From positions 1 to 49,788 of the forward strand of contig JAQTZQ010000010.1 in NCBI GenBank assembly GCA_028687645.1: a DNA stretch of 49,788 nt. The letters run 5' to 3'. The position numbers and the translations under genes were made by a program. Below, one piece after another: positions 11,917-47,458 of the stretch (its first letter is position 1; each line of letters starts with the position of its first letter). Source of the DNA: Rhodocyclaceae bacterium. Its GTDB lineage: Bacteria; Pseudomonadota; Gammaproteobacteria; Burkholderiales; Rhodocyclaceae. The notes beneath the pieces were generated by a model that was not told the origin of the DNA, ran no database searches, and worked only from the letters and a program-made list of their open reading frames with translations.

Positions 11917-11945
11917 ATTATCGCAGACATGGCAATATACCTAAG
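11917..11945 (-). promoter_or_regulatory. CTTAGG-family promoter for the Cas4-like pair
   Basis: Reading leftward: CGCTTAGG with CTTAGG at 11945-11940, 17-nt spacer, GATAAT at 11922-11917. The first gene starts 30 nt further on. The box directly follows the terminator of the partition operon. Confidence 0.75.
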
Positions 11946-11947
11946 CG

Positions 11948-11972
11948 AAAAAGGCCACTTAAAGCGGCCTTT
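11948..11972 (-). terminator. Rho-independent terminator of the parM-parR operon
   Basis: AAAGGCC (11950-11956) pairs with GGCCTTT (11966-11972) around a 9-nt loop; leftward the hairpin is followed by a T run. It lies 10 bp beyond the parR-like stop. Confidence 0.8.
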
Positions 11973-11981
11973 GAGATGGAT

Positions 11982-12323
11982 TCAAAATATATTAGCGATT
12001 CCACTATCTCGATCATCGTATTCTTTTTCATCAACACCAGAAGGTGCAGGTTGCGATACCGCTAGTGAACCACTTTTAACTTTCTTGGTCTGCCGTTTAT
12101 CTGCAATTTTGCCAGGCGTATCAAACTTGTTTGTTTTATCATCAACGGCGATCCGGCCACTTGCAACCATAAATCCAAGATAAGCCCAATATTTTAAATT
12201 ACGAGCGCGATTTCTTAGTGGCAATTTTACTAGCTCGTGAAATACATCTGGCTCCGAAACTTTTGAAACGACAAGATTCAACCGCATCGTTTCAGTCCGC
12301 TCAAGTTGGCTCGTATCGTTCAT
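11982..12323 (-). CDS. ParR/StbB-like partition partner
   Basis: 113 residues. The N-terminal half (MRLNLVVSKVSEPDVFHELVKL, then RNRARNLKYWAYLGFMV) resembles the ribbon-helix-helix region of small ParR-type adaptor proteins that bind the centromere and the ParM filament. The C-terminal half is polar and probably disordered. ATG overlaps the parM stop by 4 nt, and a terminator follows. I infer the role mostly from position after the actin-like gene; sequence resemblance alone is modest. Confidence 0.65.
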   Translation of the reverse strand: MNDTSQLERTETMRLNLVVSKVSEPDVFHELVKLPLRNRARNLKYWAYLGFMVASGRIAVDDKTNKFDTPGKIADKRQTKKVKSGSLAVSQPAPSGVDEKEYDDRDSGIANIF

Positions 12324-13372
12324 TTAAATTCTCCGGCATTAATATTATTACGCGCCCACGTTTCTCCGATAAGCTGAAATCCACGTACATTCGCGTAAAT
12401 TCCATCGTGAATAATTTTGATATCATGTTTTGGGAATTCGTTGCGAACAAGATCAGCGAATACATGCGCCCCGCCGCCAACAAGAATAATGTTATCAATA
12501 CTACCCGCTGGTCCAACGCTTTGAACTAATTTCAACAGTGGGTCAAGGGCGCGTTCTTTAGCTATTTCAAAATAATAATCAATTGGTCTTTTTGAATTCT
12601 TCCCAAAAACGCGAATGGGCTTACCGTCCCGAATCGAACGATCAATATTCTCATGCGACCCAATTTCAGATACAGAAGAATCAAAATCAGTTGCGACTTG
12701 CTCAGTCACAGCCCGAATAACTTCTGCCATTCCGCCGTTATTTACTGCGTTTGATCTAGCCTCAACTGGCGTGATTCCATCAGCCAACAGCCAATCAAGT
12801 GTGTAATAACCAGGGTCGATAATCAAATTCATCTGATCCTGCAATGTCCGAAATTGACCAATCCCTAGACCATAATCGTAGAACCCACCGATAGGCTGAG
12901 GGGCAACCAAAACTTTGACAATCGTGCAAGAAAAATCATGGGTGATCCGGTGAGTCCCCGTCATCTTAAGTGCCAAGGCGTCCTTGTACTTTCGCCAAGT
13001 TGACATTGGCAAACCAAGTACCAAAACATCAATATGCGGTTGCTGCATTAAATTTAGCGCACCGTAGGTCAGCGCACGATAAGTATCTGATAGGCAGTAA
13101 TCTTCTTTCAATACGCGACCGCTTTCATTTCCGAACTGCGCTTTCTGGGCATCAGGACCGACTTCGTATTCGTCGCTGTCAATCAAGACTCGCACAGTGT
13201 CACGCTGCTTCATAAAACCGCTTGCTATCGACTCATCTTGACTTTTCATGCAGCGCGGGGCAAACGATGGAAAAAGCGCCGCACGAATTGTGTTTTTTGA
13301 GTAATTTCGATTACTGATGAATTTCGTATTCCCGTAGCCCACGTCGATTGAGCGAATTACTGTTTGTTCCAT
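12320..13372 (-). CDS. parM: ParM/PRTRC-D-like actin-fold plasmid segregation ATPase
   Basis: 350 residues with actin/ParM signatures: phosphate-1 loop IDVGYGNTK at about residues 7-15, GLPMSTW near 128, the phosphate-2 segment LIIDPGYYTLDWL near 195 and adenosine motif IILVGGGAHVF near 300. The pattern NLIIDPGY-x-TLDWL with NNGGM is close to PRTRC system protein D and StbA/ParM. Such proteins form filaments that push plasmid copies apart. The chosen ATG follows GGAGG; an upstream in-frame ATG (13408) lacks a ribosome-binding site. A 100-nt leader separates it from the promoter. Confidence 0.88.
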   Translation of the reverse strand: MEQTVIRSIDVGYGNTKFISNRNYSKNTIRAALFPSFAPRCMKSQDESIASGFMKQRDTVRVLIDSDEYEVGPDAQKAQFGNESGRVLKEDYCLSDTYRALTYGALNLMQQPHIDVLVLGLPMSTWRKYKDALALKMTGTHRITHDFSCTIVKVLVAPQPIGGFYDYGLGIGQFRTLQDQMNLIIDPGYYTLDWLLADGITPVEARSNAVNNGGMAEVIRAVTEQVATDFDSSVSEIGSHENIDRSIRDGKPIRVFGKNSKRPIDYYFEIAKERALDPLLKLVQSVGPAGSIDNIILVGGGAHVFADLVRNEFPKHDIKIIHDGIYANVRGFQLIGETWARNNINAGEFK

Positions 13373-13484
13373 ATAAAACCTCCATTGAAAATATAGATTT
13401 TGCTCCAAGCATGGCCACTAATTACTTGAAGATCAGCGCAATAAATGCGGTGACTAAAAACAATAAGGTGTCGCCAATGACGCC

Positions 13485-13513
13485 AATTTACAGAGCAGTC
13501 GCGATTGCCTAAG
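13485..13513 (-). promoter_or_regulatory. CTTAGG-family promoter for parM
   Basis: Leftward: CTTAGG 13513-13508 within TCGCTTAGGCAA, 17-nt spacer, TAAATT 13490-13485. The ACGTG repeat region begins 14 bp upstream, the usual place for a parC-type centromere. Confidence 0.75.
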
Positions 13514-13526
13514 CGATTTTTTCAAG

Positions 13527-14774: not shown

Positions 14775-14783
14775 TTAAATTCC

Positions 14784-14812
14784 CTTAGCTTTTCCTCTGA
14801 ATTCCATAGTAT
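14784..14812 (+). promoter_or_regulatory. CTTAGG-family promoter (variant)
   Basis: CTTAGC 14784-14789, 17-nt spacer, TAGTAT 14807-14812. The box has one change from the family consensus. It precedes the gene at 14848. Confidence 0.55.
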
Positions 14813-14847
14813 GTATCCATCAGAAATTTCATTGATGGGTGACTACG

Positions 14848-15409: not shown

Positions 15410-15423
15410 CCGATGAATAATCG

Positions 15424-15452
15424 CTTAGGTTAAAAGGCCATTTCTCTACAAT
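15424..15452 (+). promoter_or_regulatory. CTTAGG-family promoter for the methyltransferase operon
   Basis: TCGCTTAGG with CTTAGG 15424-15429, 17-nt spacer, TACAAT 15447-15452. ATG of the first gene is at 15501. Confidence 0.75.
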
Positions 15453-15500
15453 TCACCTATCGACAACACGGCATCAATTACCAGAAAGAGGGGAATCAAG

Positions 15501-15905: not shown

Positions 15906-15950
15906 TTCGCCGCATCAAATCCAAAAGCCAAAACAACGAGGACATAAAAA

Positions 15951-17357
15951 ATGCTCACCTATCTCTACCGGAAGATCACACAGCATCGCGGTTCGCCTCG
16001 TTTTTGGCTGGAAGGAAAACAAGCCTCCCGTGGTGGCTTTGAGCCCGGCGTTCGTTATACCGTCACTGCAAATCCGGATAAGAAAATGGTTATCCTATCT
16101 GTGATGGATGCGGGACAACGCATGGTTTCCTCCAAAGAAAAAGGCGGGAATCGAATCCCCGTCATCGACATTAATTCCCGCGAAGTTCTCCAAGTCTTTG
16201 ATGGCTTTGAAACCGTGCGAGTGATCATTCGCCACCAGCGGATATTCATTCTGCCCGGTGTTGTTGAAATCAAGCGGCGAGATCGCCTTGAACGTCTGAC
16301 TAAGAAAATGGAAACCGGGGAATCAATATCGGTTGGTTCAATTTCCCACGGAATCGGCGTCCTCTCCCATGCGCTACACACCGGCCTCAAAGAAGGGGGC
16401 ATTAATTCCACCATGGCATTCGCCAACGATATTCGGGAAGAACTGCTCGACCAGTCATTTACAGCAAACAACGCATGGGACGGTAATACCCAACTTCTGT
16501 CGGCACCCATGCAAGAACTCGCCCTTGATGGATGGGCAATCGCCCAAATGCCACAAGTTGACATTCTCGAAGGTGGCCTGCCATGTTCTGGTGCCTCAGT
16601 CGCTGGCCGAGCGAAGCGCGGCACTGAATGTGCAGAAGCGCACTCTGAAGTTGGGGCGCTCATTGTTCCCTTCATCCAACTAATCCAAGCCACAAATGCA
16701 TGTGTCGTATTGCTGGAAAATGTCCCGCCCTATCAATCAAGCGCATCCATGTGGATACTGCGAAATTCCCTGCGCGATCTTGGTTACGACGTGCACGAAA
16801 CCATACTGGACGCCGCCGACCATAACGAACTCGAACACAGAAAACGATTGTGCATGGTCGCTGTTACTCGCGGGATGGCCTTCGACTTTGCGGAATTGGA
16901 AAAGCCCATTCTTGCCGAGCGCAAGCTTGGTGAAGTCCTTGACCAGTTTCCCGAAGACGATGCCTGCTGGAGCAGCTTCGATTACCTGAAACGGCATCAA
17001 GAGAAACATGCCGCACTTGGCAATGGATTTCAGATGCAGATTTTTAACGGTGAGTCAGATCACGTTGGCACCATCACCAAAGGTTACGCCAAGATACGCT
17101 CAACCGATCCGAAGATTGCCCACCCAAGCAATCCAGAATTGATGCGCCAACTTACGCCGGCCGAACATGCACGTTGCAAAGGCATCCCTGATGAACTGGT
17201 GACCGGCATGGGCAAAACGATAGCCCACGAAGGCTTGGGCCAAAGCATCTGCTATGCGCCATTTAAGGCGGTGGGCCGACTACTGGCACGGACACTGCAG
17301 AAGCCGATCGACTATTGCACCAAGACCATCGTGCCAGACCTGCTGGCTGCGGCATAA
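15951..17357 (+). CDS. DNA cytosine-5 methyltransferase with extra N-terminal domain
   Basis: 468 residues. C5-methylase motifs: IV with the catalytic PC (C212 in GGLPCSGAS), VI ENVPP (E about 256), VIII-like HRKRLCMV (about 294-301) and X GQSICYAPFKAVG (about 429). Motif I is unusual: SISHGIGVLSHAL instead of the common F-G-G form. Residues 1-125 form an added, beta-rich basic domain. There is no adjacent restriction gene, so it is probably an orphan methylase that protects the element or acts in regulation. SD GAGGAC precedes the ATG. Confidence 0.9.
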   Translation: MLTYLYRKITQHRGSPRFWLEGKQASRGGFEPGVRYTVTANPDKKMVILSVMDAGQRMVSSKEKGGNRIPVIDINSREVLQVFDGFETVRVIIRHQRIFILPGVVEIKRRDRLERLTKKMETGESISVGSISHGIGVLSHALHTGLKEGGINSTMAFANDIREELLDQSFTANNAWDGNTQLLSAPMQELALDGWAIAQMPQVDILEGGLPCSGASVAGRAKRGTECAEAHSEVGALIVPFIQLIQATNACVVLLENVPPYQSSASMWILRNSLRDLGYDVHETILDAADHNELEHRKRLCMVAVTRGMAFDFAELEKPILAERKLGEVLDQFPEDDACWSSFDYLKRHQEKHAALGNGFQMQIFNGESDHVGTITKGYAKIRSTDPKIAHPSNPELMRQLTPAEHARCKGIPDELVTGMGKTIAHEGLGQSICYAPFKAVGRLLARTLQKPIDYCTKTIVPDLLAAA

Positions 17358-17376
17358 ACCACGAAGGGAATTTTTG

Positions 17377-17748: not shown

Positions 17749-17816
17749 TCCGACGATTACATTTTCGCACTCAGATTCTGAGCGAAAACAGCGACAAAAT
17801 CAGATCAAAAATATCG

Positions 17817-17845
17817 CTTAGGCAAACCGTTGCAATCCCTAAAAT
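17817..17845 (+). promoter_or_regulatory. CTTAGG-family promoter
   Basis: TCGCTTAGGCAAA with CTTAGG 17817-17822, 17-nt spacer, TAAAAT 17840-17845, preceded by an A-rich stretch. Drives the small-gene operon beginning at 17891. Confidence 0.8.
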
Positions 17846-17890
17846 TCATCTATCGCACCAGATCAGGTGCTGGCTTTTAAGGGGATTGAC

Positions 17891-19270: not shown

Positions 19271-19285
19271 AAGCGCCGAAAATCG

Positions 19286-19314
19286 CTTAGGCAAACTGCT
19301 GTAATCCATAAAAT
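19286..19314 (+). promoter_or_regulatory. CTTAGG-family promoter
   Basis: TCGCTTAGGCAAA with CTTAGG 19286-19291, 17-nt spacer, TAAAAT 19309-19314. Nearly the same as the copy at 17817. First gene at 19349. Confidence 0.8.
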
Positions 19315-19348
19315 TCATGCTTCACCCGCGCCAACACAAGGAACCCCT

Positions 19349-20149: not shown

Positions 20150-20407
20150 ATGCTGAAAAAAGCGGTCATCCGCAACGCCGGTCATCCCTGGGACGGAAGG
20201 CCGGGATTCGACCTGCTCGAATACCAATGCGATTCGATTTCTGAGTCCGAAGTTTTCGTACAAGCCGCTGAAGCGAAATTCTGGCTCCCCTGGTTAGTGC
20301 ACGGCACCTGCGAGGACGGCACGTTTGGCGGTGTGCTTTATAAGCCGAGTGGGATTTCGGCTCCCTGGACGGACGATCCTCGCAATCCACATCCGGGAAT
20401 TTGCTAG
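20150..20407 (+). CDS. Hypothetical protein
   Basis: 85 residues, ATG two bases after the previous stop. Contains HPWDGRPGFDLLEYQCDS and FWLPWLVHGTC (in parts). Family not recognised and the SD is weak; its place in a tight operon supports it. Confidence 0.55.
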   Translation: MLKKAVIRNAGHPWDGRPGFDLLEYQCDSISESEVFVQAAEAKFWLPWLVHGTCEDGTFGGVLYKPSGISAPWTDDPRNPHPGIC

Positions 20408-20433
20408 GCAGAAGAAGCGGGGGCATTGGGCCG

Positions 20434-20462
20434 TTGACGGAGTAATGCAATCGCATTACCAT
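20434..20462 (+). promoter_or_regulatory. Promoter and palindromic operator of the PrlF/YhaV module
   Basis: TTGACG 20434-20439, 17-nt spacer, TACCAT 20457-20462. The perfect palindrome GTAATGC-AATC-GCATTAC (20442-20459) fills the spacer and enters the -10, as expected for autorepression by an antitoxin complex. This module does not use the CTTAGG promoter. Confidence 0.65.
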
Positions 20463-20496
20463 AAGACGCCAATTGAATTGTTGCCCGGAGTAAGCC

Positions 20497-20826
20497 ATGC
20501 CCGCAGCCCTCGAAGCCGAATCCACCCTTACTGACCGCTATCAGACCACGGTGCCGGAAGCTGTGCGCCGCATCCTCCATCTCGCCAAGCGCGACAAAAT
20601 ACACTACACAATCCGTCCCTGCGGCGAGGTTGTGCTCACTCGCGCCGAACCCTCCGACGACGATGATCCGGTGCTCGGACAGTTCCTGAGCTTTCTGACC
20701 CGCGACATTACCAATCATCCTGAACGCTTGCAGGCCGTGGGTGCCGAACTTGTTCAACGATTACAATCGTTGGTCTGTAGCGTGGTAGTCGATCTTGATG
20801 CCCCGCTATCGGCGGACGATGAATGA
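20497..20826 (+). CDS. prlF: Type II antitoxin, PrlF (SohA) family
   Basis: 109 residues. An AbrB/MazE-like N-terminal domain (STLTDRYQTTVPEAVRRILHLA, quoted partly; LTDRYQTTVP at about 10-19) is followed by a C-terminal LGQFLSFLTRDI segment typical of PrlF, which neutralises the toxin. CGGAG precedes ATG. The stop overlaps yhaV by 4 nt. Confidence 0.9.
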   Translation: MPAALEAESTLTDRYQTTVPEAVRRILHLAKRDKIHYTIRPCGEVVLTRAEPSDDDDPVLGQFLSFLTRDITNHPERLQAVGAELVQRLQSLVCSVVVDLDAPLSADDE

Positions 20827-21401: not shown

Positions 21402-21484
21402 AAAAAAAACCCGGCCAAACTGCGCCGGGTGAAGTTACAACGAGGGAGGAAAAAACGATCGCAAGCAGTGTTTATTGCTGCGAT
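21402..21484 (-). ncRNA. Predicted small RNA of about 83 nt
   Basis: A leftward CTTAGG promoter predicts a start near 21484. A strong terminator (ACCCGGC 21409-21415 with GCCGGGT 21424-21430, then eight T) ends it at about 21402. No start codon or reading frame of use lies between. The RNA would fold a 5' hairpin (21459-21483, 8 bp with one bulge), leave a U-rich single strand containing CCUCCCUCGUUG, then the terminator hairpin. The CCUCC could pair with GGAGG ribosome-binding sites. Prediction only. Confidence 0.55.
21409..21430 (-). terminator. Strong leftward rho-independent terminator
   Basis: Seven G/C-rich base pairs, 8-nt loop, then eight T on the minus strand (21408-21401). No T run is present in the rightward direction, so it does not serve yhaV. 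Confidence 0.85.
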
Positions 21485-21490
21485 ATGGTT

Positions 21491-21519
21491 ATTCTAGGGA
21501 AACCGAACAAACACCTAAG
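21491..21519 (-). promoter_or_regulatory. CTTAGG-family promoter for the small RNA
   Basis: Leftward CGCTTAGG with CTTAGG 21519-21514, 17-nt spacer, TAGAAT 21496-21491. It stands back to back with the rightward copy at 21566; the A/T-rich 46 bp between the two boxes could be a shared upstream region. Confidence 0.7.
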
Positions 21520-21565
21520 CGATATTTTTCGATTTAAATGCCAATTTTTATTTAAAAAAATATCG

Positions 21566-21594
21566 CTTAGGTATTCAGCCACCTCTCGTAAACT
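21566..21594 (+). promoter_or_regulatory. CTTAGG-family promoter
   Basis: ATATCGCTTAGG with CTTAGG 21566-21571, 17-nt spacer, TAAACT 21589-21594. Drives the operon from 21625 to 24016. Confidence 0.78.
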
Positions 21595-21624
21595 TTGCCC
21601 ATTACCAACGCAACGGAGGTTTTG

Positions 21625-24016: not shown

Positions 24017-24042
24017 CCCTCCGCAAATCGAGCGAATTTCGG

Positions 24043-26606
<2,564 letters not shown>

Positions 26607-28022: not shown

Positions 28023-28060
28023 AATTGACCCCGTTCGGCATCGGGCAAAGTCTGAAATCA

Positions 28061-28089
28061 CTTAGGCAACCACCCAAAGCCGGTAAATT
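28061..28089 (+). promoter_or_regulatory. CTTAGG-family promoter
   Basis: CACTTAGGCAA with CTTAGG 28061-28066, 17-nt spacer, TAAATT 28084-28089. Drives the operon from 28134 to 29453. Confidence 0.75.
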
Positions 28090-28133
28090 GTCTCCATTGG
28101 CACCGAATGTGTGCCGTCACCAACGAGGACAAA

Positions 28134-29244: not shown

Positions 29245-29453
29245 CCATCAGATACACCGCCGACGTGTTCTGCAACGGCTGCGGCAACTGGATGCACGGC
29301 AAAACCTCAGACAAGCCAACCGGGCTGGCGCGGCCATCGCGGGAGGCGGCTCGGAAAGCCGGCTGGTCGCATAGCAACACCTCGATTGCCAGCGATCTTT
29401 GTCCAGAATGCATGCGAAAAGCATCGGCCAAAAAGGACCAAAAAACCGCTTAG
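29241..29453 (+). CDS. Small zinc-ribbon protein
   Basis: 70 residues. CNGCGNW at about 11-17 and CPEC at about 54-57 form a two-pair zinc ribbon; REAARKAGWSH lies between. Such small ribbons are common in phage and plasmid regions. Last gene of the 28.1-29.5 kb operon. Confidence 0.75.
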   Translation: MTIRYTADVFCNGCGNWMHGKTSDKPTGLARPSREAARKAGWSHSNTSIASDLCPECMRKASAKKDQKTA

Positions 29454-29477
29454 GCAAAGCCCCGCACCCGGTAAATT
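29449..29477 (+). promoter_or_regulatory. CTTAGG-family promoter
   Basis: ACCGCTTAGGCAAA with CTTAGG 29449-29454, 17-nt spacer, TAAATT 29472-29477. The box overlaps the stop codon of the preceding gene (GCT TAG G). Confidence 0.78.
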
Positions 29478-29520
29478 GTCGTTATCGCGGCGATGATGCC
29501 GCACCGCACGGGGCAATAAA

Positions 29521-32793: not shown

Positions 32794-33173
32794 GCATCAC
32801 CCACCGGAAACGGTGGGTGTGGATTGAAACAGGTAAACCAGCTTCTTAGCCAAAATTTCGGCGAGCATCACCCACCGGAAACGGTGGGTGTGGATTGAAA
32901 CGCCGCCAGGGTGTTTTACTCGCACCTCTGCCAAAGCATCACCCACCGGAAACGGTGGGTGTGGATTGAAACCTCAATGCTGTCAATCCAGCTTGCGACC
33001 ACTGGCGCATCACCCACCGGAAACGGTGGGTGTGGATTGAAACGCTTATCCACCAGGCAACGTATTCGCCGATGGCGGCATCACCCACCGGAAACGGTGG
33101 GTGTGGATTGAAACAATGTTTCCTGGTCGAGATATACAACGCCGCCTTGCATCACCCACCGGAAACGGTGGGT
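32794..33173 (+). CRISPR. CRISPR array 2: 37-bp repeats, 5 spacers
   Basis: Five full 37-bp repeats start at 32794, 32865, 32936, 33007 and 33078; a sixth (33149-33173) is cut after 25 bp. Within the repeat CACCCACCG-GAAA-CGGTGGGTG is a perfect 9-bp stem with a GNRA loop, and it ends with tag ATTGAAAC. All five spacers are exactly 34 nt. The GTGGATTGAAAC ending is like type I-C repeats. No cas gene lies near, so processing must come from elsewhere. Confidence 0.97.
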
Positions 33174-34633: not shown

Positions 34634-34665
34634 TTTCTCCCCTTTAGATGCCGTTTCGATAAGCA

Positions 34666-34694
34666 ATTGTGGCATTTCCGCCTGATTGCCTAAG
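34666..34694 (-). promoter_or_regulatory. CTTAGG-family promoter, duplicated copy A
   Basis: Leftward TCGCTTAGGCAA with CTTAGG 34694-34689, 17-nt spacer, CACAAT 34671-34666. About 58 bp around it (34648-34705) recur almost unchanged at 35455-35512. Confidence 0.72.
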
Positions 34695-34771
34695 CGAAAT
34701 TTTCGCCAACAAGGGAAGTGGAATCGAATTGCAGCCTCGACTTTCGCACTACGATTTTGGTGCCGCTTCGA

Positions 34772-35447: not shown

Positions 35448-35471
35448 CTTTGAATGCCGTTTCGATAAGTA

Positions 35472-35500
35472 ATTGTGGCATTTCCGCCTGATTGCCTAAG
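35472..35500 (-). promoter_or_regulatory. CTTAGG-family promoter, duplicated copy B
   Basis: Leftward TCGCTTAGGCAA with CTTAGG 35500-35495, 17-nt spacer, CACAAT 35477-35472. It is transcribed through the exonuclease fragment into the gene at 35335. Confidence 0.72.
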
Positions 35501-35612
35501 CGAATTTTTCACCGCATGATTGCGCATCCTCTACGCTTTGGCCAGACAAGCTTGGGACTGGCGATTGTGCGTCATTTGTACTAACATTGCGAAATTGACG
35601 AAAGGATTTCTG

Positions 35613-40400: not shown

Positions 40401-40649
40401 GCCATGTGTTTCCAGCGCCTTCGCCAGCCGATCCATCAGGATGTCGAGGGCACGGTCGCCATTGTCCTTCTTGAGCTTGGCCCATTTCTCACCTTGGCCG
40501 GAGGCTTCCAGCCAGGCAATCAAGTCCTCCGCGTACAACGCCCGCTCAGTGTCGTACATGGTAGTTTCGCCAACCTGCCAGCCTTGCGCTTCCATCTGGG
40601 CAACGACGTAGCTCTCGAAGTGCTTTTCTTGGTGTGCGGTGTCGCTCAT
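37401..40649 (-). CDS. hsdR: Type I restriction endonuclease/translocase subunit (copy 2)
   Basis: 1082 residues, the same length as copy 1 and mostly the same sequence. Nuclease site IDLVLF and ATIELKT (about 140-156), Walker A SAGSGKTS (about 320), DEAH (about 435), FAFTGTP and DKFQTGFDQP are all intact. Differences are scattered substitutions, with a short variable segment near 930-950 (PAEEVDAPLLKPIVG here). The stop is followed by the palindrome AGATCAAATGTTTGATCT (37397-37414), which may help end transcription. ATG overlaps the hsdS stop by 4 nt. Confidence 0.97.
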   Translation of the reverse strand: MSDTAHQEKHFESYVVAQMEAQGWQVGETTMYDTERALYAEDLIAWLEASGQGEKWAKLKKDNGDRALDILMDRLAKALETHGTVQVLRQGFSIAGCGHIDLSEAAPEDKRNADVLKRYAANILRVVPQLQYHPSRKLAIDLVLFINGIPVATIELKTDFTQSAEAAMDQYRTDRLPYDPKTKRKEPLLSFKRGAVVHFAMSDSEIQMATKLDGENTFFLPFNKGNNGHAGNPEGKLKADGTREYPVAYFWEDVCKPDAWLRVFHSFVYVEKKDVVDLKGNWSKKETLIFPRFHQWSAVNEMIADAKQNSPGMVYLADHSAGSGKTSTISWTAHDLLKLRRDNGDAIFSSVIIVTDRNVLDGQLQDAVKQIDHQFGVIAAIDRQKSSKSKSQQLADALLASTPIIVVTIQTFPYAMEAIVTDKTLKGKNFAVIIDEAHNSQTGTTAAKLQTALAMSGQGKMASLTVEELLEQLQKSRARPDNISYFAFTGTPKHSTLMLFGRPADPTQPPSKDNLPKAFHRYSMRQAIEEGFILDVLKGYVPYKTAFNLAKQIEDNKRVSAKAAKRALAQWMSLHPTNVTQKVQFIIEHFSRNVAHRLDGKAKAMVVTSSRAAAIRYKKAFDRYIAQHTEYGYIHSLIAFSGKVTGKQVMHGDDAQFKDDLFIVDENEEYTEESMNPDVKGQDLRLAFDRPEYRVMLVADKFQTGFDQPKLVAQYIDKKIANDVEIVQTFSRLNRMAPGKDQVFIIDFVNDPENVRRAFAMYDDGAQIDDVQDLNVVYEIKEQLDCQGLYQAADLEAFKEARFKTIRDITHAQEPQHKALYTATEGPTRLFNQRMKMLREAIATWEAAFDKAHSQGDQAGMKSADHHRQEHAEQIKALMAFKAGLGRFCRTYAYVAQLIDFGDPELENFAAFAKLLQKRLSGETPENVDLKGLVLSGFDIKGKDDAPAEEVDAPLLKPIVGPGGGGAGDTPRFLTEIIDKLNHLFGEATPLGDQVAFVNQIAAIARENDVVMAQVESNTRDQAMKGNLPGAVQQGVVRALTSHQKLATLVLKSDRQAMSALTDVIYELICNQQNIDLDRSNV

Positions 40650-41950
40650 ACGGACCCCCGGAGGTCGATTTGGCCGGTGACGGCAGCGGTAATAAAGGCA
40701 GCGCGGCGTTCTTTGAGAAGGTTGATGCTGCGCTGGGTTTTTTCGGTGAGGCTGTCGATTCTGCTTACTGACTTATCGAGAAAGTCGGCAATCGACTTTT
40801 GCTCATCGAGACTTGGACAGGGCAGTTTTACTTGGCGGAAATTGTTGTAGCTGAGGTCTTGGCCGTCCCGGATGAATGTCGCCGTTGCCTGAAGACCTTG
40901 AATGTATGCGCCCGATTTGAACAGGTAGGTAAAAAAGCCAATATGTGCATTCTCGCTGGCTTTTAGCACGACGTATGAAGACCGAACACATCCACGAGCC
41001 TTGACCCGCTCAATCCCACCTTCAAAACTCCGCATGCTAATAACGAAATCACCGACTTCAGCATGCTTACGTTGATCAAGATTCTTCACTGCATGCGTTA
41101 CTTGGCGTTCCTCTAAGCGTTCATATTCTGCCAGCGGAATTACACCGTATTTCTGGGTCGCCGAGAGGTGTTCATCCTCAGCCCATGCTCGCTCTTTGCT
41201 TTCTGGGAAAAGACTATTACTGGCTACAAAGTCCCAATATTCTGGAATGTCTCCTAGCCACTCCGCACCCGAATCCTTCATCTTCACACCGGGATCAAGC
41301 CCCTTGGTAACAGCATGCGTGATGAGCGCCTGGCGCTTTTCCTTCAGGAGTTCGATGAAGCGGGTTTTCTTGGTGATAAGGGCGTCGATGCGGGTGGTTT
41401 CGCGGTGAAGGCCACCGGCAATCGAAACGCACTCAGAAAGCGGCGGCATTGGAATACGCAAAGACCTTAACGCCTCGGTCGACAATTCCTGAAAGGTCGT
41501 GCCGTTGCCGCGTAGCCGTAATTCTTCTCTGGCCGCAACTAACGTAGATGCCAAATAATTCGTAGGCACATGCTGTGCGGGAATTAGGGTTCGGCAGCCT
41601 TGGTTGATCGTAGAGGGAATTGTTGTTGTTCCAACACTACCAATCGGTGCGCGGGTGCTGAGAACCACGCTTCCTGGTGGGGATAGTTTTACGGCACAAC
41701 TGTCATAGCCCGCTTGGGTAATATAGCGACGTGGCGCTCCAAGTTTTGACGCGACTTCATTATCGATGTCGGTCGGGGTGTACCACGCAATATCTCCACC
41801 CCAGTATTCTGGTTTGCCGCTTTCAGGAGTTGCGCCATTTACCGTGTCCGCAATGACCTTGAGCGGAGTAACCCGCCAATGCTCCGGCACCCGCCCAATC
41901 CATTCCACGCCGGAATCCCGGTAGGCCGGGTAAGGCTTGTAGTGGCTCAT
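40646..41950 (-). CDS. hsdS: Type I restriction specificity subunit (copy 2)
   Basis: 434 residues. The scaffold is shared with copy 1 (YRDSGVEWIGRVPEHW, RIDALITKKTRFIELLKEKR, TEKTQRSINLLKERR at the end). TRD1 (about 28-165) and TRD2 (about 245-390) are different sequences, so the DNA target differs. Overlaps the Fic gene and hsdR by 4 nt each. Confidence 0.96.
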   Translation of the reverse strand: MSHYKPYPAYRDSGVEWIGRVPEHWRVTPLKVIADTVNGATPESGKPEYWGGDIAWYTPTDIDNEVASKLGAPRRYITQAGYDSCAVKLSPPGSVVLSTRAPIGSVGTTTIPSTINQGCRTLIPAQHVPTNYLASTLVAAREELRLRGNGTTFQELSTEALRSLRIPMPPLSECVSIAGGLHRETTRIDALITKKTRFIELLKEKRQALITHAVTKGLDPGVKMKDSGAEWLGDIPEYWDFVASNSLFPESKERAWAEDEHLSATQKYGVIPLAEYERLEERQVTHAVKNLDQRKHAEVGDFVISMRSFEGGIERVKARGCVRSSYVVLKASENAHIGFFTYLFKSGAYIQGLQATATFIRDGQDLSYNNFRQVKLPCPSLDEQKSIADFLDKSVSRIDSLTEKTQRSINLLKERRAAFITAAVTGQIDLRGSV

Positions 41951-43068
41951 TCGTTATTACCCCCTTCATTACCCTTACTTGGAGGTAATGGATTACCTTC
42001 ATTGTCACCGCTTGTTCTCGACCACATAGCGCCAGCGCCGCGCCCAGAACAACCGATAAAACCTAGCTCTTGCTGCTCGCGCAAGACATGGCGAACCATG
42101 TCACGGCTGACACCGGGGCAAACTTGCTCCAATTCGCTGATCTTGAATCCACCTTTGTTACGGGAGAGCAATTGGTTGATGCCAGCAACAACCCTCTCAC
42201 GCTTTTCGCCACGAGGGGCTTTGACCTCGCCAACGCGCTCAATGAAGTCACGGTAAGCCGTTTTCTTGATGGACAGGACGTAGTTAATGTAATGCCACGG
42301 GTTATGTTTGCCCTCATGCCAGCCTGTTGAACTCAACTCAAGCGTCTCGTAGTAACGCTCCTTGTTTTGCTCGACCAAGCGCTCCACGCTGATGTAGCGA
42401 CCGACCTCATAACCCATCTGATAGCTCTGTAACAGCCACAGCAATCGAGAGACACGGCCATTGCCATCCCGGAATGGGTGGATGCACAGGAAATCAAGAT
42501 TGAAGGCAGCGAGTGCAATCAGCGGGGGCACCCAGCGCTCTTCAAGGCACTGCTGCCAGTCGGCTACCAACGTATCCATAGCCGTCTGTGTTTCTGCCGC
42601 AGGAATGGTGCGAAATCGAACACGTTCGGAGCCGTCCGGGTAGCGCTCGATGATGTCGCCATCCCGTTCCTTGTATTTCCCGGCATCCCAGATTTGTCCA
42701 CGGGTCAGTGCATGTAAACGGCAGATCGTTTCATTAATGATAGGCAGGTGATTGCCTTCCTTGTGGATCAAGGCCAATGCATCACGATAGCCGCGAACTT
42801 CTTCTTCGTCCCGGTCGCGAAATAGCGGCCTTGGCGCAACCAGAATATCGCGTACGCGATTCGGATCAATCGTAACGCCTTCAATCCGATTCGATGAGAC
42901 AGCACTTTCAATAATCGCAGACTCCCGAAGCGCCTTCAGACGCTGCGGTGATTGCTGAGTGTAAAGCGCCTGTTTTCCTCGGAACTCACCCAAGTCATTC
43001 AGATACCAAGCGGTGCTGGTTTCAATTGGAAAGCGGTTTAGCGAAAACAGGCGAAGTGTTGAGATCAC
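41947..43068 (-). CDS. Fic family protein in type I RM operon
   Basis: 373 residues from GTG 43068, overlapping the previous stop as GTGA with AGAGG upstream. The Fic motif HPFRDGNGR is complete at about 197-205, and an N-terminal inhibitory S-x3-E-G helix (SSNRIEG) is at about 58-64, so this is a self-inhibited class II enzyme. A winged-helix-like C-terminal domain follows (FKISELEQVCPGVSRDMVRHVL, in part). Fic enzymes AMPylate proteins. Its presence between hsdM and hsdS is repeated in many type I loci; the role there is not established. Confidence 0.93.
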   Translation of the reverse strand: MISTLRLFSLNRFPIETSTAWYLNDLGEFRGKQALYTQQSPQRLKALRESAIIESAVSSNRIEGVTIDPNRVRDILVAPRPLFRDRDEEEVRGYRDALALIHKEGNHLPIINETICRLHALTRGQIWDAGKYKERDGDIIERYPDGSERVRFRTIPAAETQTAMDTLVADWQQCLEERWVPPLIALAAFNLDFLCIHPFRDGNGRVSRLLWLLQSYQMGYEVGRYISVERLVEQNKERYYETLELSSTGWHEGKHNPWHYINYVLSIKKTAYRDFIERVGEVKAPRGEKRERVVAGINQLLSRNKGGFKISELEQVCPGVSRDMVRHVLREQQELGFIGCSGRGAGAMWSRTSGDNEGNPLPPSKGNEGGNNE

Positions 43069-43700
43069 TTTGCTGCCTCTTGTTCCTTGATCCAATCAGC
43101 CTTTCCATATCGATAATCAGGAAACTCGTTTTGCAAGGTCGTTTGTCCAAGAAGAAGTTGCCGCGCCAAGGTTGCCACTTGTGCAAGTTCATCTTCGCTT
43201 CTGACTTCCAATGGAACAATCAGGCTAACGCCCGTCGCCCAGTTCAAGCGTTCGCGCTTCCAGGAGGTATTGACCTCCAGATCGATCCCTTCGGCTTCCA
43301 TGCGCTGACGAACGGCACGCAGATGTTCGTAGTAAGCGTCCTGCTCTGCCGATGGCTGTCGGGAGGTGTAGCTGACGATTTTTTTGCGGGATTTTCCAAC
43401 CTGCTTGTAGTTGGTTGTTGCTCCGTCAAAAAGCCAATCATCCTGCGGGTCAGGGCCAGCCTGATCCCAGGATTGTGATTCGATGGCGGTACGGTAGATA
43501 TAACGCGGATGCTGCCACCAAACGATGACTCGCCTACCGTTGAGGATGAAGCCAAAGTCATCCCACCAGGACAGGCTATCGGGCTTGGTTTCGGCGTAGG
43601 AGTGCGGGATATACAAGCCACCCTTACTCAATCGCCATGGGTTATTCCGATGATGTTGCCGCTGCATCCGGCTAAAGAGTTCTTGTTTGTGGCTCTTCAT
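43065..43700 (-). CDS. Hypothetical protein in type I RM cargo slot
   Basis: 211 residues. Tryptophan-rich N-terminal half (LSWWDDFGFILNGRRVIVWWQHPRYIYR, in part), basic middle (GKSRKKIVSYTSR) and a helical end. No family recognised. Overlaps its neighbours by 4 nt on both sides. Confidence 0.78.
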   Translation of the reverse strand: MKSHKQELFSRMQRQHHRNNPWRLSKGGLYIPHSYAETKPDSLSWWDDFGFILNGRRVIVWWQHPRYIYRTAIESQSWDQAGPDPQDDWLFDGATTNYKQVGKSRKKIVSYTSRQPSAEQDAYYEHLRAVRQRMEAEGIDLEVNTSWKRERLNWATGVSLIVPLEVRSEDELAQVATLARQLLLGQTTLQNEFPDYRYGKADWIKEQEAAK

Positions 43701-43966
43701 TTGAGCCCCCTCCAGTAAGGGTAGTCGCCTACTTGCCTCCAGTGCGGTGCGCTGCCTTTAAGCTCATGAGGGTTGTGCGACCGCCATTCCTTTCCATCCC
43801 ACCACTGGATGACATTTCCATCGGTGAAATGGCGCTCGTAATACCCAGTAACCCCCGGCGCAGTTTCCCCAGAAAACCACTCGGTCACGCTTGCTGATTG
43901 CGGAGCACGCTCATTAGCAATCGCAATCCATGAGGAAGGATCAAGGTTAAATGGTTTGGCTTTCAT
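43697..43966 (-). CDS. Small Trp-rich hypothetical protein in type I RM cargo slot
   Basis: 89 residues with repeated W-containing units (VIQWWDGKEWRSH, HWRQVGDYPYWRG). Such patterns occur in small phage proteins that present a WDG-W surface. Overlaps hsdM by 4 nt. Unassigned. Confidence 0.72.
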   Translation of the reverse strand: MKAKPFNLDPSSWIAIANERAPQSASVTEWFSGETAPGVTGYYERHFTDGNVIQWWDGKEWRSHNPHELKGSAPHWRQVGDYPYWRGLK

Positions 43967-45984
43967 TCTGTGGCCACCTCAGCAAGAAGCGCAGCAATCT
44001 CCGACTCAACCTGCTTCAGTTCCGCATCGATGTCATGCAGCTTGCGCGGCGGCACGTACTGGTAGAAGAAGCGATTGAAGTTGATTTCGTAACCGACAAT
44101 GCCCACGCCGTTGTCAGTTTTGTCCACGTAGGACTGGTCGATCCAGGCATCGGGAATGTGGGGCAGCACCTCGCGGGCGAAGTAGTCCCGGGTATCCTCA
44201 AGGAGCGGTACGTTTTCGTAGTCAGTCAGGCCGCTGTCTGCAACGGTATTCCCGTCCGCATCAATGACTGGCTCACCTTCCGTATCGCGGATACCGAAGG
44301 CATTGACCAGCGCCTTGAGGAAGGGCTTGCCAACCTTACCAACGGCAGTATCCCTCTTTACCGCCTCATCCGCGAAGGATTCAGCCCAGGCGAATGGGTG
44401 TATTGAGCCGATATGCGGATTTAAGGCTCGCATCCATGCAGTCTGTTGATCGGGCGTGAGCTTGCCCCAGGCCTTCTCGCTTTCAAGGCGGTTCATCGTT
44501 TCCGCATTGATGTGAAGCGACATGCGCAACGGACGCAGTACACGGATGCGGCGGTAGCCGAATCGACGATAGTCGAGCATGCGACTGAGTTCGCCACTCT
44601 CTGCGGACGAGTACACTTCCACGATTTGTCGCCTCTGATCGTCGCTGATAATTCGGCGCTTGTTGCCCTCGTTTTTGATTGAGGTCCAAAGTCCCGTGGC
44701 GTTGATCAGTTGAACCTGATGACGCCGATGTTCCGGCTTCTTGTTGGAGAGAACCCAGAGATAAGTGCCAATGCCGGTGCGGAAGAATATTTCCGTCGGC
44801 AGCGCCACAATGGCATCGACCAGATCGTTTTCCAAAAGCCAACGGCGAATTTCGGATTCCCCTGACCCAGCGCCACCGTTAAAAAGGGGGGAGCCTGAAA
44901 GAACAATGGTTGCGCGGCCACCTCCCAACTCGGGCAGTTCCAGCTTGTCGGCCAGATGCAGCAGGAATAGCATAGAGCCGTCATTGATGCGGGGCAGGCC
45001 AGGGCCAAAGCGACCGTTGTAGCCCTTCTCGGTGTGCTCTGTGTTGACGAACGCAGCGTCTTTCTCCCATTTTTTGCCGAAAGGCGGATTGGAGAGGCCA
45101 TAGTGAAACCGCTCTCCCGCAAACTGATCATTGGAAAGCGTGCTGCCCAGTCGGATGTTTTTCGATAGGTCGCGGCCCGGATCGGATTCCAGCGTGCGCA
45201 GCAACATACTGGCCAGGCAGACGGCGTGAGTTTCCGGCTCAAGCTCTTGTCCATAAGGAACAAGCACAGGAGGAACCTTGGAATGATTGCCGTACTCAGC
45301 AACATGGCTCATGGCATCTGTCAGGAATCCGCCCGTGCCACAGGTCGGGTCATATAGGGTACGAATCAGGCCGGGATTGGACTCGAACAGAGCATCGTCC
45401 GGGTCAAGCAAAAGCGCAGTGGATAGATGCACCACGTCGCGGGGCGTCATGAAATCCTCGGCACCTTCGTTGACCTCGGCACCAAAGCGGCGGATCAGGT
45501 GCTCGTAGAGGTTGCTCATCACGCGATCCGGTACCGCTACCGGATGAAGGTCGATTCCGGCGAAGTTTTTGCAAATCTTGAAGAGTACACCGGCCTTGTC
45601 GAGCCGGATGATGGTGTTCGAGAAATCGAACTGCTCGAAAATGATCCTGGCGTTGTCCGAAAAGTGCGCAATGTAATCCTGAAGGTTCTGGCGGGTCTTG
45701 GTGCTACCCAAGCTGTCCAAGGCGTATTCGGACGTGTTGTAAAACGGGTAGCGGGTGGCCTGCCGAAGCACCAGATCAAGGTCGATCCCCGCATCCTTGA
45801 AAGTGGCGTAGCTTTCGCGGACGCCTTCGCGTGTCGGTTCCAGCACACATTCCAATCGACGCAGCAAGGTAAACGGCAGAATGATCTTGCCGAAATCCGT
45901 GTGCTTGAAATCACCCCAAAGGTCTTCGGCGTTTTTCCAGATGAAATCCGCCAGCGATGCGCCTGAGCCTGTCTGTTCTGCCAT
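43963..45984 (-). CDS. hsdM: Type I restriction-modification N6-adenine methyltransferase subunit (copy 2)
   Basis: 673 residues, closely similar to copy 1 from the third residue on (EQTGSGASLADF). DPTCGTGGF (about 212) and NPPF (about 298) are intact. The region after about residue 510 is the most divergent part between copies. AGGGAAAA precedes ATG. Transcription appears to start from a CTTCAG-17-TACAAT promoter (46057-46029) rather than from the operator-flanked promoter of copy 1. Confidence 0.97.
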   Translation of the reverse strand: MAEQTGSGASLADFIWKNAEDLWGDFKHTDFGKIILPFTLLRRLECVLEPTREGVRESYATFKDAGIDLDLVLRQATRYPFYNTSEYALDSLGSTKTRQNLQDYIAHFSDNARIIFEQFDFSNTIIRLDKAGVLFKICKNFAGIDLHPVAVPDRVMSNLYEHLIRRFGAEVNEGAEDFMTPRDVVHLSTALLLDPDDALFESNPGLIRTLYDPTCGTGGFLTDAMSHVAEYGNHSKVPPVLVPYGQELEPETHAVCLASMLLRTLESDPGRDLSKNIRLGSTLSNDQFAGERFHYGLSNPPFGKKWEKDAAFVNTEHTEKGYNGRFGPGLPRINDGSMLFLLHLADKLELPELGGGRATIVLSGSPLFNGGAGSGESEIRRWLLENDLVDAIVALPTEIFFRTGIGTYLWVLSNKKPEHRRHQVQLINATGLWTSIKNEGNKRRIISDDQRRQIVEVYSSAESGELSRMLDYRRFGYRRIRVLRPLRMSLHINAETMNRLESEKAWGKLTPDQQTAWMRALNPHIGSIHPFAWAESFADEAVKRDTAVGKVGKPFLKALVNAFGIRDTEGEPVIDADGNTVADSGLTDYENVPLLEDTRDYFAREVLPHIPDAWIDQSYVDKTDNGVGIVGYEINFNRFFYQYVPPRKLHDIDAELKQVESEIAALLAEVATE

Positions 45985-46028
45985 TTTTTTCCCTGCCCGC
46001 TATCGAGCCAAAGTTTGTTGCGATGATG

Positions 46029-46057
46029 ATTGTATTTATGCGAAAAACATTCTGAAG
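46029..46057 (-). promoter_or_regulatory. Promoter of hsdM2, weak CTTAGG-like
   Basis: Leftward CTTCAG 46057-46052, 17-nt spacer, TACAAT 46034-46029. The -35 has two changes from CTTAGG, so family membership is uncertain, but spacing and -10 fit. It overlaps the stop region of the small gene upstream. Confidence 0.45.
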
Positions 46058-46058
46058 T

Positions 46059-46220
46059 TTAAGCACGTCCCTCGTCACTGAGCACTTCAAGATCAACGTC
46101 AGCCACAGCCCTTTGAGCCCGCATAAAGGAAAGCATCTCGTCTACGGCAGCCACAGCATCTGCATTGTGGTTACTTTCTGCTGGCAAAAGATCGGCCACG
46201 GCCTCGCTGTCAATAAACAT
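46059..46220 (-). CDS. Small acidic protein, 53 residues
   Basis: ATG 46220 overlaps the end of the preceding small gene by 11 nt. The product is acidic and helical (FIDSEAVADLLPAES, AAVDEMLSFMRAQRAVADVD). Too short for family assignment. Gene order and frame fit an operon of three. Confidence 0.5.
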   Translation of the reverse strand: MFIDSEAVADLLPAESNHNADAVAAVDEMLSFMRAQRAVADVDLEVLSDEGRA

Positions 46221-46347
46221 CAATGTCTTTTTCCAACTCCCGCCGCTCAGCCCTCAGATGCCAGGCAAGAAGGCGCGAAAACACAAAACGACCTGCCGCC
46301 ATCAGCAGGAAGAAGAAGACAAATTGCGCCCAGAGTTCCACGATCAA
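46210..46347 (-). CDS. Small membrane protein, 45 residues
   Basis: TTG 46347 overlaps the upstream stop as TTGA. One hydrophobic segment (LWAQFVFFFLLMAAGRFVF) is followed by a basic then acidic helix (HLRAERRELEKDIDVY). Probably an inner-membrane single-pass protein. The same TTGA coupling is used elsewhere in this element, which supports it. Confidence 0.6.
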   Translation of the reverse strand: MIVELWAQFVFFFLLMAAGRFVFSRLLAWHLRAERRELEKDIDVY

Positions 46348-46823
46348 GCCGCCAATAACTCAACGGCCAGCGGCATGACTCTTGAATTCAGGGCTTCTCG
46401 CGTGACCGGGTAGCACAGGCCGTTGCACATAAAATGAAAAATCTCCCGCGTCTCGCTGGACTTTTCCAAGTGACTGATCAGCCGCATGCGCCGCCAATCC
46501 GGCTTGCCGTCGATGGGCAGCACCTTGACCATGTAGCTTTCGCCGATGACCGGATCAAGGCGGGGCAGGGCGAGGCCGATATGAGATGCCGTAATCTGCT
46601 CGCCGTCCACATCAACCACGGCAACCGTCTCAAGCATCGGCAAGACGTGGCCGAACTCGAACTCGTGGCGCGATAACCAATCCCGGTGCGCTTCTACCGG
46701 ATCAGGCCAGCGCCGGAAATTCTCGCCAGTGAGATTGTTGAACACCGTCGAGACAGCATCCGGCAGGCCAGAGATGAGCATTTTCCCGCCGACGATCAGA
46801 AAATGGGTGTTGGATGATGCCAA
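46344..46823 (-). CDS. Hypothetical protein
   Basis: 159 residues, ATG 46823 about 26 nt from the predicted transcript start. Mixed alpha/beta, with RRWPDPVEAHRDWLSRHEFEF and VIGESYMVKVLPIDGKPDW (in parts). Unassigned. First gene of a three-gene operon. Confidence 0.68.
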   Translation of the reverse strand: MASSNTHFLIVGGKMLISGLPDAVSTVFNNLTGENFRRWPDPVEAHRDWLSRHEFEFGHVLPMLETVAVVDVDGEQITASHIGLALPRLDPVIGESYMVKVLPIDGKPDWRRMRLISHLEKSSETREIFHFMCNGLCYPVTREALNSRVMPLAVELLAA

Positions 46824-46855
46824 TTTGTATCCCCTGAAAAAATTGCTATGACAGA

Positions 46856-46884
46856 ATTCTAGCTGTTCGCCGCCACCGCCTAAG
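46856..46884 (-). promoter_or_regulatory. CTTAGG-family promoter
   Basis: Leftward TCGCTTAGG with CTTAGG 46884-46879, 17-nt spacer, TAGAAT 46861-46856. The box contains the stop codon of the upstream gene (GCT TAG G). Confidence 0.78.
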
Positions 46885-47395
46885 CGATTTTCTGCCGCTG
46901 CCGATCGACAGCAACATCAACATCCTCGGGCGCATCCTCCCAATCGACGTGATTTGGGTTTCGCATCGCGAAAATGGCAACATCCTTGGCGCACATCCGA
47001 GCACGCAGCCAGGCATAACGCGCCGCGATAGCCTCCAGATCGCTGGGCAGATCGGGTACCGCCTCAGCAAGAAGCGCCTCAGAATCGCACGGGGATTTTG
47101 TGCCAGGCACGGACATATCCAGATGGGCAGGATGCGCCATCCAGTGAGTGGCCATATAAGCCTCTTGAGGCTGATAAAAATTCGGCGCGAGATCGTCTAT
47201 AGGGAGGTCAAACACCTGCTGGCCGGCGAACTCGACGCCACCGGTGTACACCAAAACGCGCTCGTACTCGTCGCGATCCGGCAAGCGATCCAAAAACGAA
47301 ATCCACGCCGGGTTGGCGGCGGTTTTCGGGCGCTCGGCTGCCGGGACATAGCGTTTTTCGATGCTGGCCAAGAAACTTTCGACGGTGTTTTCCAT
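46880..47395 (-). CDS. DUF551-like protein
   Basis: 171 residues. WISFLDRLPDRDEYERVLVYTG at about 31-52 (as WISFLDRLP, RVLVYTGG) and ATHWMAHPAHLDM near 82-94 match the DUF551 pattern W-I----RLP...THWM--P found in phage proteins. The C-terminal half is helical. The N-terminal 30 residues are extra. Function unknown. Confidence 0.75.
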   Translation of the reverse strand: MENTVESFLASIEKRYVPAAERPKTAANPAWISFLDRLPDRDEYERVLVYTGGVEFAGQQVFDLPIDDLAPNFYQPQEAYMATHWMAHPAHLDMSVPGTKSPCDSEALLAEAVPDLPSDLEAIAARYAWLRARMCAKDVAIFAMRNPNHVDWEDAPEDVDVAVDRQRQKIA

Positions 47396-47429
47396 GATTT
47401 TTTTCCTTTAATCGGTTATTGACATCTTG

Positions 47430-47458
47430 ATATTAGCGAGTTCGTTTCAACACCTAAG
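47430..47458 (-). promoter_or_regulatory. CTTAGG-family promoter
   Basis: Leftward ACGCTTAGG with CTTAGG 47458-47453, 17-nt spacer, TAATAT 47435-47430. The DNA between here and 47571 has only tiny frames (for example a 23-residue one at 47495-47566) that I cannot support. Confidence 0.72.

Follow-up and report, generated by a model that had tools for sequence, protein, structure and literature searches.

The 49,788-nt contig JAQTZQ010000010.1 of a Rhodocyclaceae bacterium (assembly GCA_028687645.1; positions 1 to 49,788, forward strand) was analysed over its whole length, which we call the window and which is numbered C43 among the 310 contigs of the 4.28-Mb draft genome. It carries genes for a ParM-like partition protein, a Cas4-like nuclease, a C5-cytosine methyltransferase and a DNA ligase, together with small open reading frames (ORFs), a toxin–antitoxin pair and restriction cassettes. 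Before the partition, nuclease, methyltransferase and small genes, and perhaps the ligase, the sequence contains a family of promoter-like sites. In these, a conserved box around the hexamer CTTAGG takes the place of the −35 element, and a −10 hexamer follows after exactly 17 nt.

CTTAGG occurs 17 times on the two strands of the window. At 13 of these places, a TATAAT-like hexamer (at least four of six matches) lies exactly 17 nt downstream, against a background of 2.2% (binomial p = 8e-19); the remaining four (8614−, 15319−, 35654+, and 36408−) have no −10-like hexamer at that distance. The longer motif CGCTTAGG is present in 15 copies where 0.70 are expected, a number reached by none of 100 shuffles, and CTTAGG-N15-19-TANNNT in 10 copies against 0.23 expected from shuffling. 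A motif-blind test of all hexamers at spacings of 13 to 20 from TANNNT found no pair in the window stronger than CTTAGG at 17 (p = 9e-18). When applied to ten sets of related plasmid and island DNA, the same test gave a best pair with p = 7e-6 and never CTTAGG at 17; in the pooled contigs C144 (right end) and C79 of the same genome, no hexamer–spacing pair reached the four-copy minimum.

A preliminary description of the window had counted 15 sites. We recovered 13 exact CTTAGG sites, 12 with CGCTTAGG and one with CACTTAGG at 28061, and a profile search added two weaker variants, CTTAGC at 14784 and CTTAGA at 24043; these are probably the same 15. The variants scored 11.4 and 13.6, inside the noise of shuffled sequence (maxima of ten shuffled windows, 2.9 to 15.4), and are therefore counted for their position before genes alone. 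The 119-residue gene behind the first variant has a paralogue on contig C295, which carries a full box.

The strict fixed-spacer composite, CGCTTAGG-N17-TANNNT, has 12 matches in the 4.28 Mb of the genome: nine in the window and a single one on each of C79, C254, and C295, compared with none in the reversed control. The preliminary description had asked whether the host chromosome carries the motif before ordinary genes at a similar density; all 12 matches lie on these four contigs, and the strict composite appears to be a robust, element-specific promoter class. Over the whole genome, the enrichment is lost with looser patterns: spacings of 15–19 gave 13 matches versus 10 in the reversed control, with 12 of the 13 at spacing 17, and CTTAGG-N17-NANNNT gave 41 places versus 81. 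The looser search led to contigs C144 and C223, and in all ten further sites on five other contigs of the draft joined the 13 of the window to give a set of 23. This set was chosen by hand. It holds 22 of the 41 loose-pattern places (13 of 14 on C43, two of three on C79, three of four on C144, one on C254, two on C295, and one on C223) and C144:22962, whose −10, TATATA, falls outside that pattern. Position 15291 of C43, 4108 of C79, and 14389 of C144 were dropped, together with 16 places elsewhere in the draft, the majority unread. Leave-one-out profile scores of the 23 sites ran from 15.3 to 44.0, the lowest belonging to 11945. Outside the set, C124:5227 scored 24.3 and may be a real box site.

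The consensus of the 23 sites reads AAAAWATCGCTTAGGYAAW at −44 to −26, N13, TANAAT, N6, and A, where the box width of 19 bp is our reading of the alignment columns. An A-tract covers −44 to −39 (14–20 of 23 sites with A in each column), C stands at −37 in 22 of 23, and −36 is G in 19 and A in the other four. The preliminary description had placed CAA after the hexamer, which proved too narrow: position −29 is a pyrimidine (Y) in 23 of 23 sites, 12 with C and 11 with T, and −28 to −26 are A-rich, so that the element is better described as YAA-like. At the predicted start region, A is found at +1 in 16 of 23 sites, Y at −1 in 21, and T at +2 in 19. The A-tract, C at −37, the YAA, and the start region are columns unused in site selection, while the letters of the −10 were partly selected.

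The match of the −10 to TATAAT averages 4.48 of six at spacing 17 and at most 2.70 at the other spacings from 10 to 24. In all 23 sites the best match, or a tie for the best, falls at 17, which bears out the fixed spacer noted earlier. The −10 hexamer is of the sigma-70 type, with a predicted start about 7 nt further on. The sites look promoter-like also in position, since 18 of 23 would have a leader of 19–42 nt before the first acceptable start codon. Longer leaders are predicted for parM (106 nt), for the SSB gene (71 nt), for the site on C223 (63 nt), and for 35500 (130 nt, with an uncertain start codon).

A TTGACA-like −35 is absent from all 23 sites, as had been remarked for the window, and CTTAGG itself matches TTGACA at two of six positions. 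The best alternative −35 hexamer at spacings of 15–19 matches on average 3.17 of six, compared with 2.80 at random places, and is often TAGGCA at spacing 15. TG at −15/−14 is found in five of 23 sites. Such promoters would be expected to be weak for sigma-70 alone. Because a usable −35 is lacking, a near-invariant asymmetric block stands in its place, and the distance to the −10 is fixed, a protein standing in for the −35 contact is suggested.

We consider it probable, on balance, that the sites are the promoters of one regulon, in which an element-encoded activator, bound to the box, stands in for the −35 contact of the host sigma-70 polymerase. A sequence-specific protein would bind the asymmetric box of about 19 bp, AAAAWATCGCTTAGGYAAW, at −44 to −26. 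The bound activator would touch the host sigma-70 RNA polymerase, through sigma region 4 and/or the C-terminal domain of the alpha subunit, and supply the −35 contact; the polymerase would then use the sigma-70-type −10 and start 7 nt further on. Where the activator is present, the backbone genes would be expressed, namely those for partition, SSB, the PD-(D/E)XK nuclease, a directionality-factor-like protein, the methyltransferase, a giant helicase, small ORFs, and perhaps the ligase. The restriction cassette and the toxin–antitoxin pair would rely on ordinary promoters. Transcription of the sites, binding of a protein to the box, its activating role, and its encoding by the element are what we infer.

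The closest published layout appears to be that of SetCD and AcaCD, which the preliminary description did not name. In the part of the SetCD study available to us (PMC4344509), a 19-bp box lies at or just upstream of a missing −35 in a class II arrangement and is suggested to compensate for it; AcaCD-dependent promoters of IncA/C plasmids are treated, likewise in the part available, in PMC4207636. As far as these portions go, SetCD/AcaCD of the SXT/R391 integrative and conjugative elements and the IncA/C plasmids resemble the present case in having an element-wide regulon with the box at or next to a −35 region devoid of TTGACA. Class II is defined by a box that overlaps or adjoins a degenerate −35 in a constant geometry, and the sequence shows this layout here too. 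IncA/C-like plasmids and islands further share helicase, PD-(D/E)XK nuclease, SSB, and ParM-like genes with the element. They differ in that the FlhC family was not detected here, nor was AcaB in a search without a positive control. The likeness seen is one of layout. Moreover, SetCD targets, according to the same portions, include transfer and excision genes, whereas the genes behind the box here serve maintenance and DNA processing. The likeness would concern the way of working. Membership of the SetCD/AcaCD family is not claimed, because searches for FlhC, AcaB, and CII were empty and the regulator was not found.

The preliminary description had compared the layout with phage middle promoters. 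In the available part of the T4 literature (PMC2988021), the MotA box is located 12±1 bp from the −10 and is centred at −30. T4 MotA/AsiA resembles the box family in that the host −10 is kept, the box replaces the −35, the box is asymmetric with a GCTT core, and many operons are served. The spacing differs, since CTTAGG stands 17 bp from the −10 in 23 of 23 sites and the block is centred at −35. The comparison with T4 therefore holds for the layout and fails for the distance.

The main rival takes the box for an operator that overlaps weak sigma-70 promoters and is bound by a repressor acting across the element, with transcription when the repressor is low, for example just after transfer. Many copies over partition, SSB, and recombination genes would suit a plasmid-wide repressor, and the core of the box can be read by eye as a partial palindrome, TNRCNTANGYNA. 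C1 of phage P1 offers an analogue, as presumably do KorA and KorB of the IncP plasmids. The first 3 kb of P1 (NC_005856) illustrate the principle with two C1 operators, one operator type serving a plasmid-like element. Operators need no constant distance from the −10, and these two are placed differently: Oref falls within the −35/−10 interval, and Omat is found upstream, in the opposite orientation. The box, in contrast, fits spacing 17 in 23 of 23 sites. Under repression, the promoters would also still require a −35 usable by sigma-70, and the best candidates found hardly exceed background. We regard repression as unlikely, while giving it some weight.

Alternatively, no special protein may be needed: a promoter cassette could have been copied around the element and be read by the host sigma-70 or RpoS, with the A-tract as an UP element. 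The sites before paralogous genes bear on this. Several box-headed genes have diverged paralogues in the genome (69% identity for the directionality-factor-like protein), and in three diverged paralogous gene pairs the promoter is found on both copies, with one degenerate box in each of two pairs. Between paralogues, agreement is near chance in the spacer (3–4 of 13 positions) and in the upstream flank (14–17 of 49); it is higher in the 12-nt box block (6–8 of 12), the −10 (4–5 of six), and the start triplet (2–3 of three). Since the sites were found by their box, part of the box agreement was built in. The shared position and start suggest, short of proof, that selection has kept the promoter in diverged paralogues, and we count this in favour of the regulon. 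The fourth pair, 34694/35500, arose by recent duplication, spacer included, as copying would predict; elsewhere neither spacers nor flanks are related, and the sites are not recent copies. The A-tract at −44 to −39 would fit what we take to be a proximal UP element. RpoS presumably tolerates poor −35s, and one sigma gene of the genome lies in a neighbourhood like that of rpoS. Against this stands the octamer, since a host sigma factor alone should need no conserved non-consensus octamer at one exact distance. Furthermore, no other contig of the genome has the strict composite, and in related genomes its matches are scattered, at most three per genome. We give copying without a dedicated protein little credence.

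With activation by an element-encoded protein in mind, the genome was searched for the regulator. FlhC (PF05280) had no match in the draft at E ≤ 1e-3, with a positive control in one of 14 (E. coli), though divergent members may escape. An alignment of two AcaB proteins matched nothing in the genome in a search without a positive control. CII homologues (PF05269) were also absent from the genome, the control being positive in two of 14. Sigma70_r2 was found in seven genes at E ≤ 1e-3, six of them over the cut-off. This bears on the possibility that the element has its own sigma factor, with CGCTTAGG as the −35 that it recognizes; the asymmetric, near-invariant −35, rigid spacing, and defined start seen here are what such a factor would produce. 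All seven genes have neighbours that look chromosomal by eye, such as surE/pcm/nlpD, dnaG, flagellar, and ilv genes. The search found no sigma gene on the box-bearing contigs of the 310-contig draft, and the −10 is of the ordinary sigma-70 type. The assembly of the element may be incomplete, and a sigma factor without a recognizable region 2 would escape the search. We consider a dedicated sigma factor improbable. The preliminary description had held an activator, a repressor, or a sigma factor likely; a trans-acting factor is still indicated, with an activator favoured, a dedicated sigma factor is not supported, and the regulator itself was not found.

Proteins with KfrA_N, H-NS, ORF6N, or HVO_A0114-type helix-turn-helix domains are encoded on the box-bearing contigs (KfrA_N on C79 and C144, and H-NS on C79 and C254), and nothing ties any of them to the box. 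One tentative possibility is a master activator of a family new to plasmids, unrelated to FlhDC, with its box exactly over the −35, which would run the whole programme of maintenance and establishment, with partition, SSB, recombination, modification, and helicase genes. In a bolder form, the binder would be a partition or KfrA-type protein, and the twenty-odd boxes would double as distributed partition or organizing sites.

Several points weigh against an activated regulon. The evidence for it comes entirely from sequence, and transcription and binding are predicted. The searches for FlhC, AcaB, and CII yielded no activator candidate in this genome. Two element proteins folded from single sequences reached mean predicted local distance difference test scores (pLDDT) of 54.8 and 49.0, too poor to be used. 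A sequence search of solved structures with one of the two returned nothing, and for one of ten proteins PHROGs gave three weak matches of no assigned function. Since CTTAGG, the spacing, and some letters of the −10 were set in the search, their conservation, between paralogues as well, follows in part from the way the sites were selected. Partition and SSB genes usually need steady expression, which an activator-only regulon fits less simply. Finally, the A-tract could be a proximal UP element, and some activator-free sigma-70 activity is possible.

The distribution of the box agrees with a division between backbone and cargo. The preliminary description had assigned different promoters to hsdM1 and prlF, and this agrees with our reading: neither region has a box in the profile scan, and the −35/−10 pairs seen by eye are near the sigma-70 consensus. 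The hsd labels of the restriction cassettes are our assumption; prlF is the label of that description, and only yhaV was tested by profile. The second hsd cassette has no box in the profile scan either, and a clear −35 was not seen by eye. A coordinated backbone beside separately controlled cargo, as was proposed, thus agrees with the sequence. Further box-headed genes encode the giant helicase on C254, SSB on C144 (identified through its relative annotated as SSB in pSTJ2), and DUF3799 and Gp3-like proteins (C79 by profile test, C144 by paralogy). Contig C254 overlaps the right end of the window, the last residues of its helicase frame repeating the start of the helicase ORF at 49756.

Relatives of the helicase, DUF3799, SSB, and ParM-like proteins occur on IncA/C-like plasmids and islands, among them pSTJ2 of Sulfuricystis, whose annotation includes MobI, MobH, AcaB, FlhC, and genes for F-type transfer. 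Among plasmids, the methyltransferase and the helicase have their top-ranked relatives in betaproteobacteria, which makes a betaproteobacterial host probable. The box-bearing contigs may form one plasmid-like element; the diverged paralogues would also fit two related elements. Two diverged Gp3-like/DUF3799 pairs were noted in the genome (L050:7093-8142 versus L009:4503-5555, and L050:8284-9126 versus L009:5713-6558), suggesting two related elements or a large duplication.

Outside the genome, the box is rare. Among 100 genomes (our own and 99 related ones), 11 have CGCTTAGG-N17-TANNNT, the ten others with 12 matches in total and at most three each. Among 399 members of the order (own included), 12 have ATCGCTTAGG-N17-TANNNT, the 11 others with one each. 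A longer pattern, which fits nine of our 23 sites, was used for two large collections, from which records of the own genome were possibly left out. It gave 31 single matches in genome_contigs, where 29.7 are expected by chance at equal base frequencies, and five in viral contigs, four of identical sequence; diverged or near-identical copies could be missed. Related plasmid and island stretches hold few CTTAGG-like hexamers near loose −10s, and none with an A-tract and a good −10. In 35 loci (148.7 kb), the three box matches all fall in our own locus L133. With the patterns used, no second cluster of boxes was found in the related genomes, the related plasmids, or the two collections. Among the papers viewed by title for CTTAGG promoters and for CGCTTAGG on plasmids, a small part of those matching, none concerns this box, which may already be in print.

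The 134-residue protein encoded at 15501 has five distant plasmid matches of at most 40.5% identity and no viral relative found, and the 119-residue protein has no plasmid match. The directionality-factor-like protein has matches in 40 plasmids, of which the regions of three were read, and none in phages or viral contigs. The Simplicispira plasmid (L025) and pSTJ2 (L092) resemble the element in their gene sets and in that a single regulatory unit recurs in front of many genes. Their unit is a G+C-rich leader hairpin and not a −35 box, and convincing CTTAGG boxes are absent there. The hairpin leader (AACCC..CGGGG..CCCCGC..GGGG) precedes many of their backbone genes, and a similar one is found on contig C144 of our genome (L049, near 4864).

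Master regulators set when large plasmids express their genes, and few, such as SetCD, AcaCD, and the Kor proteins, have been characterized closely. With its strict and readily scored form, a box at some two dozen promoters is a handle to find a new one, and the box family shows how an element can separate backbone control from cargo control. If the activator is found, it would provide an orthogonal promoter–activator pair. The sites of the window are collected below. Transcription starts of the 13 exact sites are predicted at 11910, 13478, 15459, 17852, 19321, 21484, 21601, 28096, 29484, 34659, 35465, 46849, and 47423.

Table 1. Predicted box promoters, weak variants, and box-free contrast regions in the window (aa, amino acids).
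Feature	Coordinates	Strand	Promoter elements	Genes behind
Contrast region before hsdM1	180..330	+	TTGAAA-N16-TATACT by eye; no box (no profile match)	hsdM1
Box promoter	11910..11954	-	CTTAGG at 11945; -10 GATAAT; predicted start 11910	Short ORF starting at 11887; Cas4-like PD-(D/E)XK gene 10963-11748 (PDDEXK_1, E 8.6e-5)
Box promoter	13478..13522	-	CTTAGG at 13513; -10 TAAATT; predicted start 13478	parM-like gene (start 13372, 106 nt on; PRTRC_D TIGR03739, E 2.5e-84), then 113-aa gene
Weak variant box	14775..14819	+	CTTAGC at 14784; -10 TAGTAT	119-aa gene at 14848
Box promoter	15415..15459	+	CTTAGG at 15424; -10 TACAAT	134-aa gene at 15501; C5-cytosine methyltransferase 15951-17357 (DNA_methylase, E 8.1e-24)
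Box promoter	17808..17852	+	CTTAGG at 17817; -10 TAAAAT	NinX-like gene at about 17891 (Phage_P22_NinX)
Box promoter	19277..19321	+	CTTAGG at 19286; -10 TAAAAT	71-aa ORF at 19349; DUF3268 gene at 19561
Contrast region before prlF-yhaV	20380..20500	+	TTGACG-N17-TACCAT by eye; no box (no profile match)	prlF-yhaV (Toxin_YhaV matched)
Box promoter	21484..21528	-	CTTAGG at 21519; -10 TAGAAT; reads away from 21566	
Box promoter	21557..21601	+	CTTAGG at 21566; -10 TAAACT	Gene at 21625 and those behind
Weak variant box	24034..24078	+	CTTAGA at 24043; -10 TAAACT	NAD-dependent DNA ligase (start about 24108; ligase domains detected)
Box promoter	28052..28096	+	CACTTAGG; CTTAGG at 28061; -10 TAAATT	Small-gene operon from 28134
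Box promoter	29440..29484	+	CTTAGG at 29449; -10 TAAATT	Gene at 29521; ORF6N gene 30538-31143 further along the same strand
Box promoter	34659..34703	-	CTTAGG at 34694; -10 CACAAT	Gene at about 34633
Box promoter	35465..35509	-	CTTAGG at 35500; -10 CACAAT; local duplicate of 34694	Start codon uncertain
Box promoter	46849..46893	-	CTTAGG at 46884; -10 TAGAAT	159-aa gene at 46823
Box promoter	47423..47467	-	CTTAGG at 47458; -10 TAATAT	DUF551-like gene at 47395 (E 4e-4, just short of cut-off)

For the site at 21519 on the minus strand, no convincing gene was found nearby. It runs within about 35 nt into a hairpin followed by a run of six T (21445-21528; fold z −3.05), and the site may represent either a tiny RNA or an attenuated promoter.

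Two CRISPR arrays lie in the window. The first (32017-32661) has 10 repeats and nine spacers. The second (32796-33114) has a different repeat, with five exact copies, four spacers, and a degenerate sixth copy extending to 33186. The 13 spacers gave self-matches alone among the own-genome and related DNA compared; cas genes were not searched for.

The two apparent type I restriction-modification cassettes (285-9379 and 37401-45984) are in inverted orientation. They share DNA at 86.7% identity over 3,364 nt and at 83.4% over 1,329 nt in their two longest matches, and the specificity proteins differ by eye. Recombination between the cassettes could invert the 28 kb between them. A transposase-like ORF (9372-10676), which we take to be of the ISL3 type, overlaps the end of the first hsdR. 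Just behind it, a fragment at 10615-10908 is 81% identical over 64 amino acids to a VapC-family toxin of pSTJ2.

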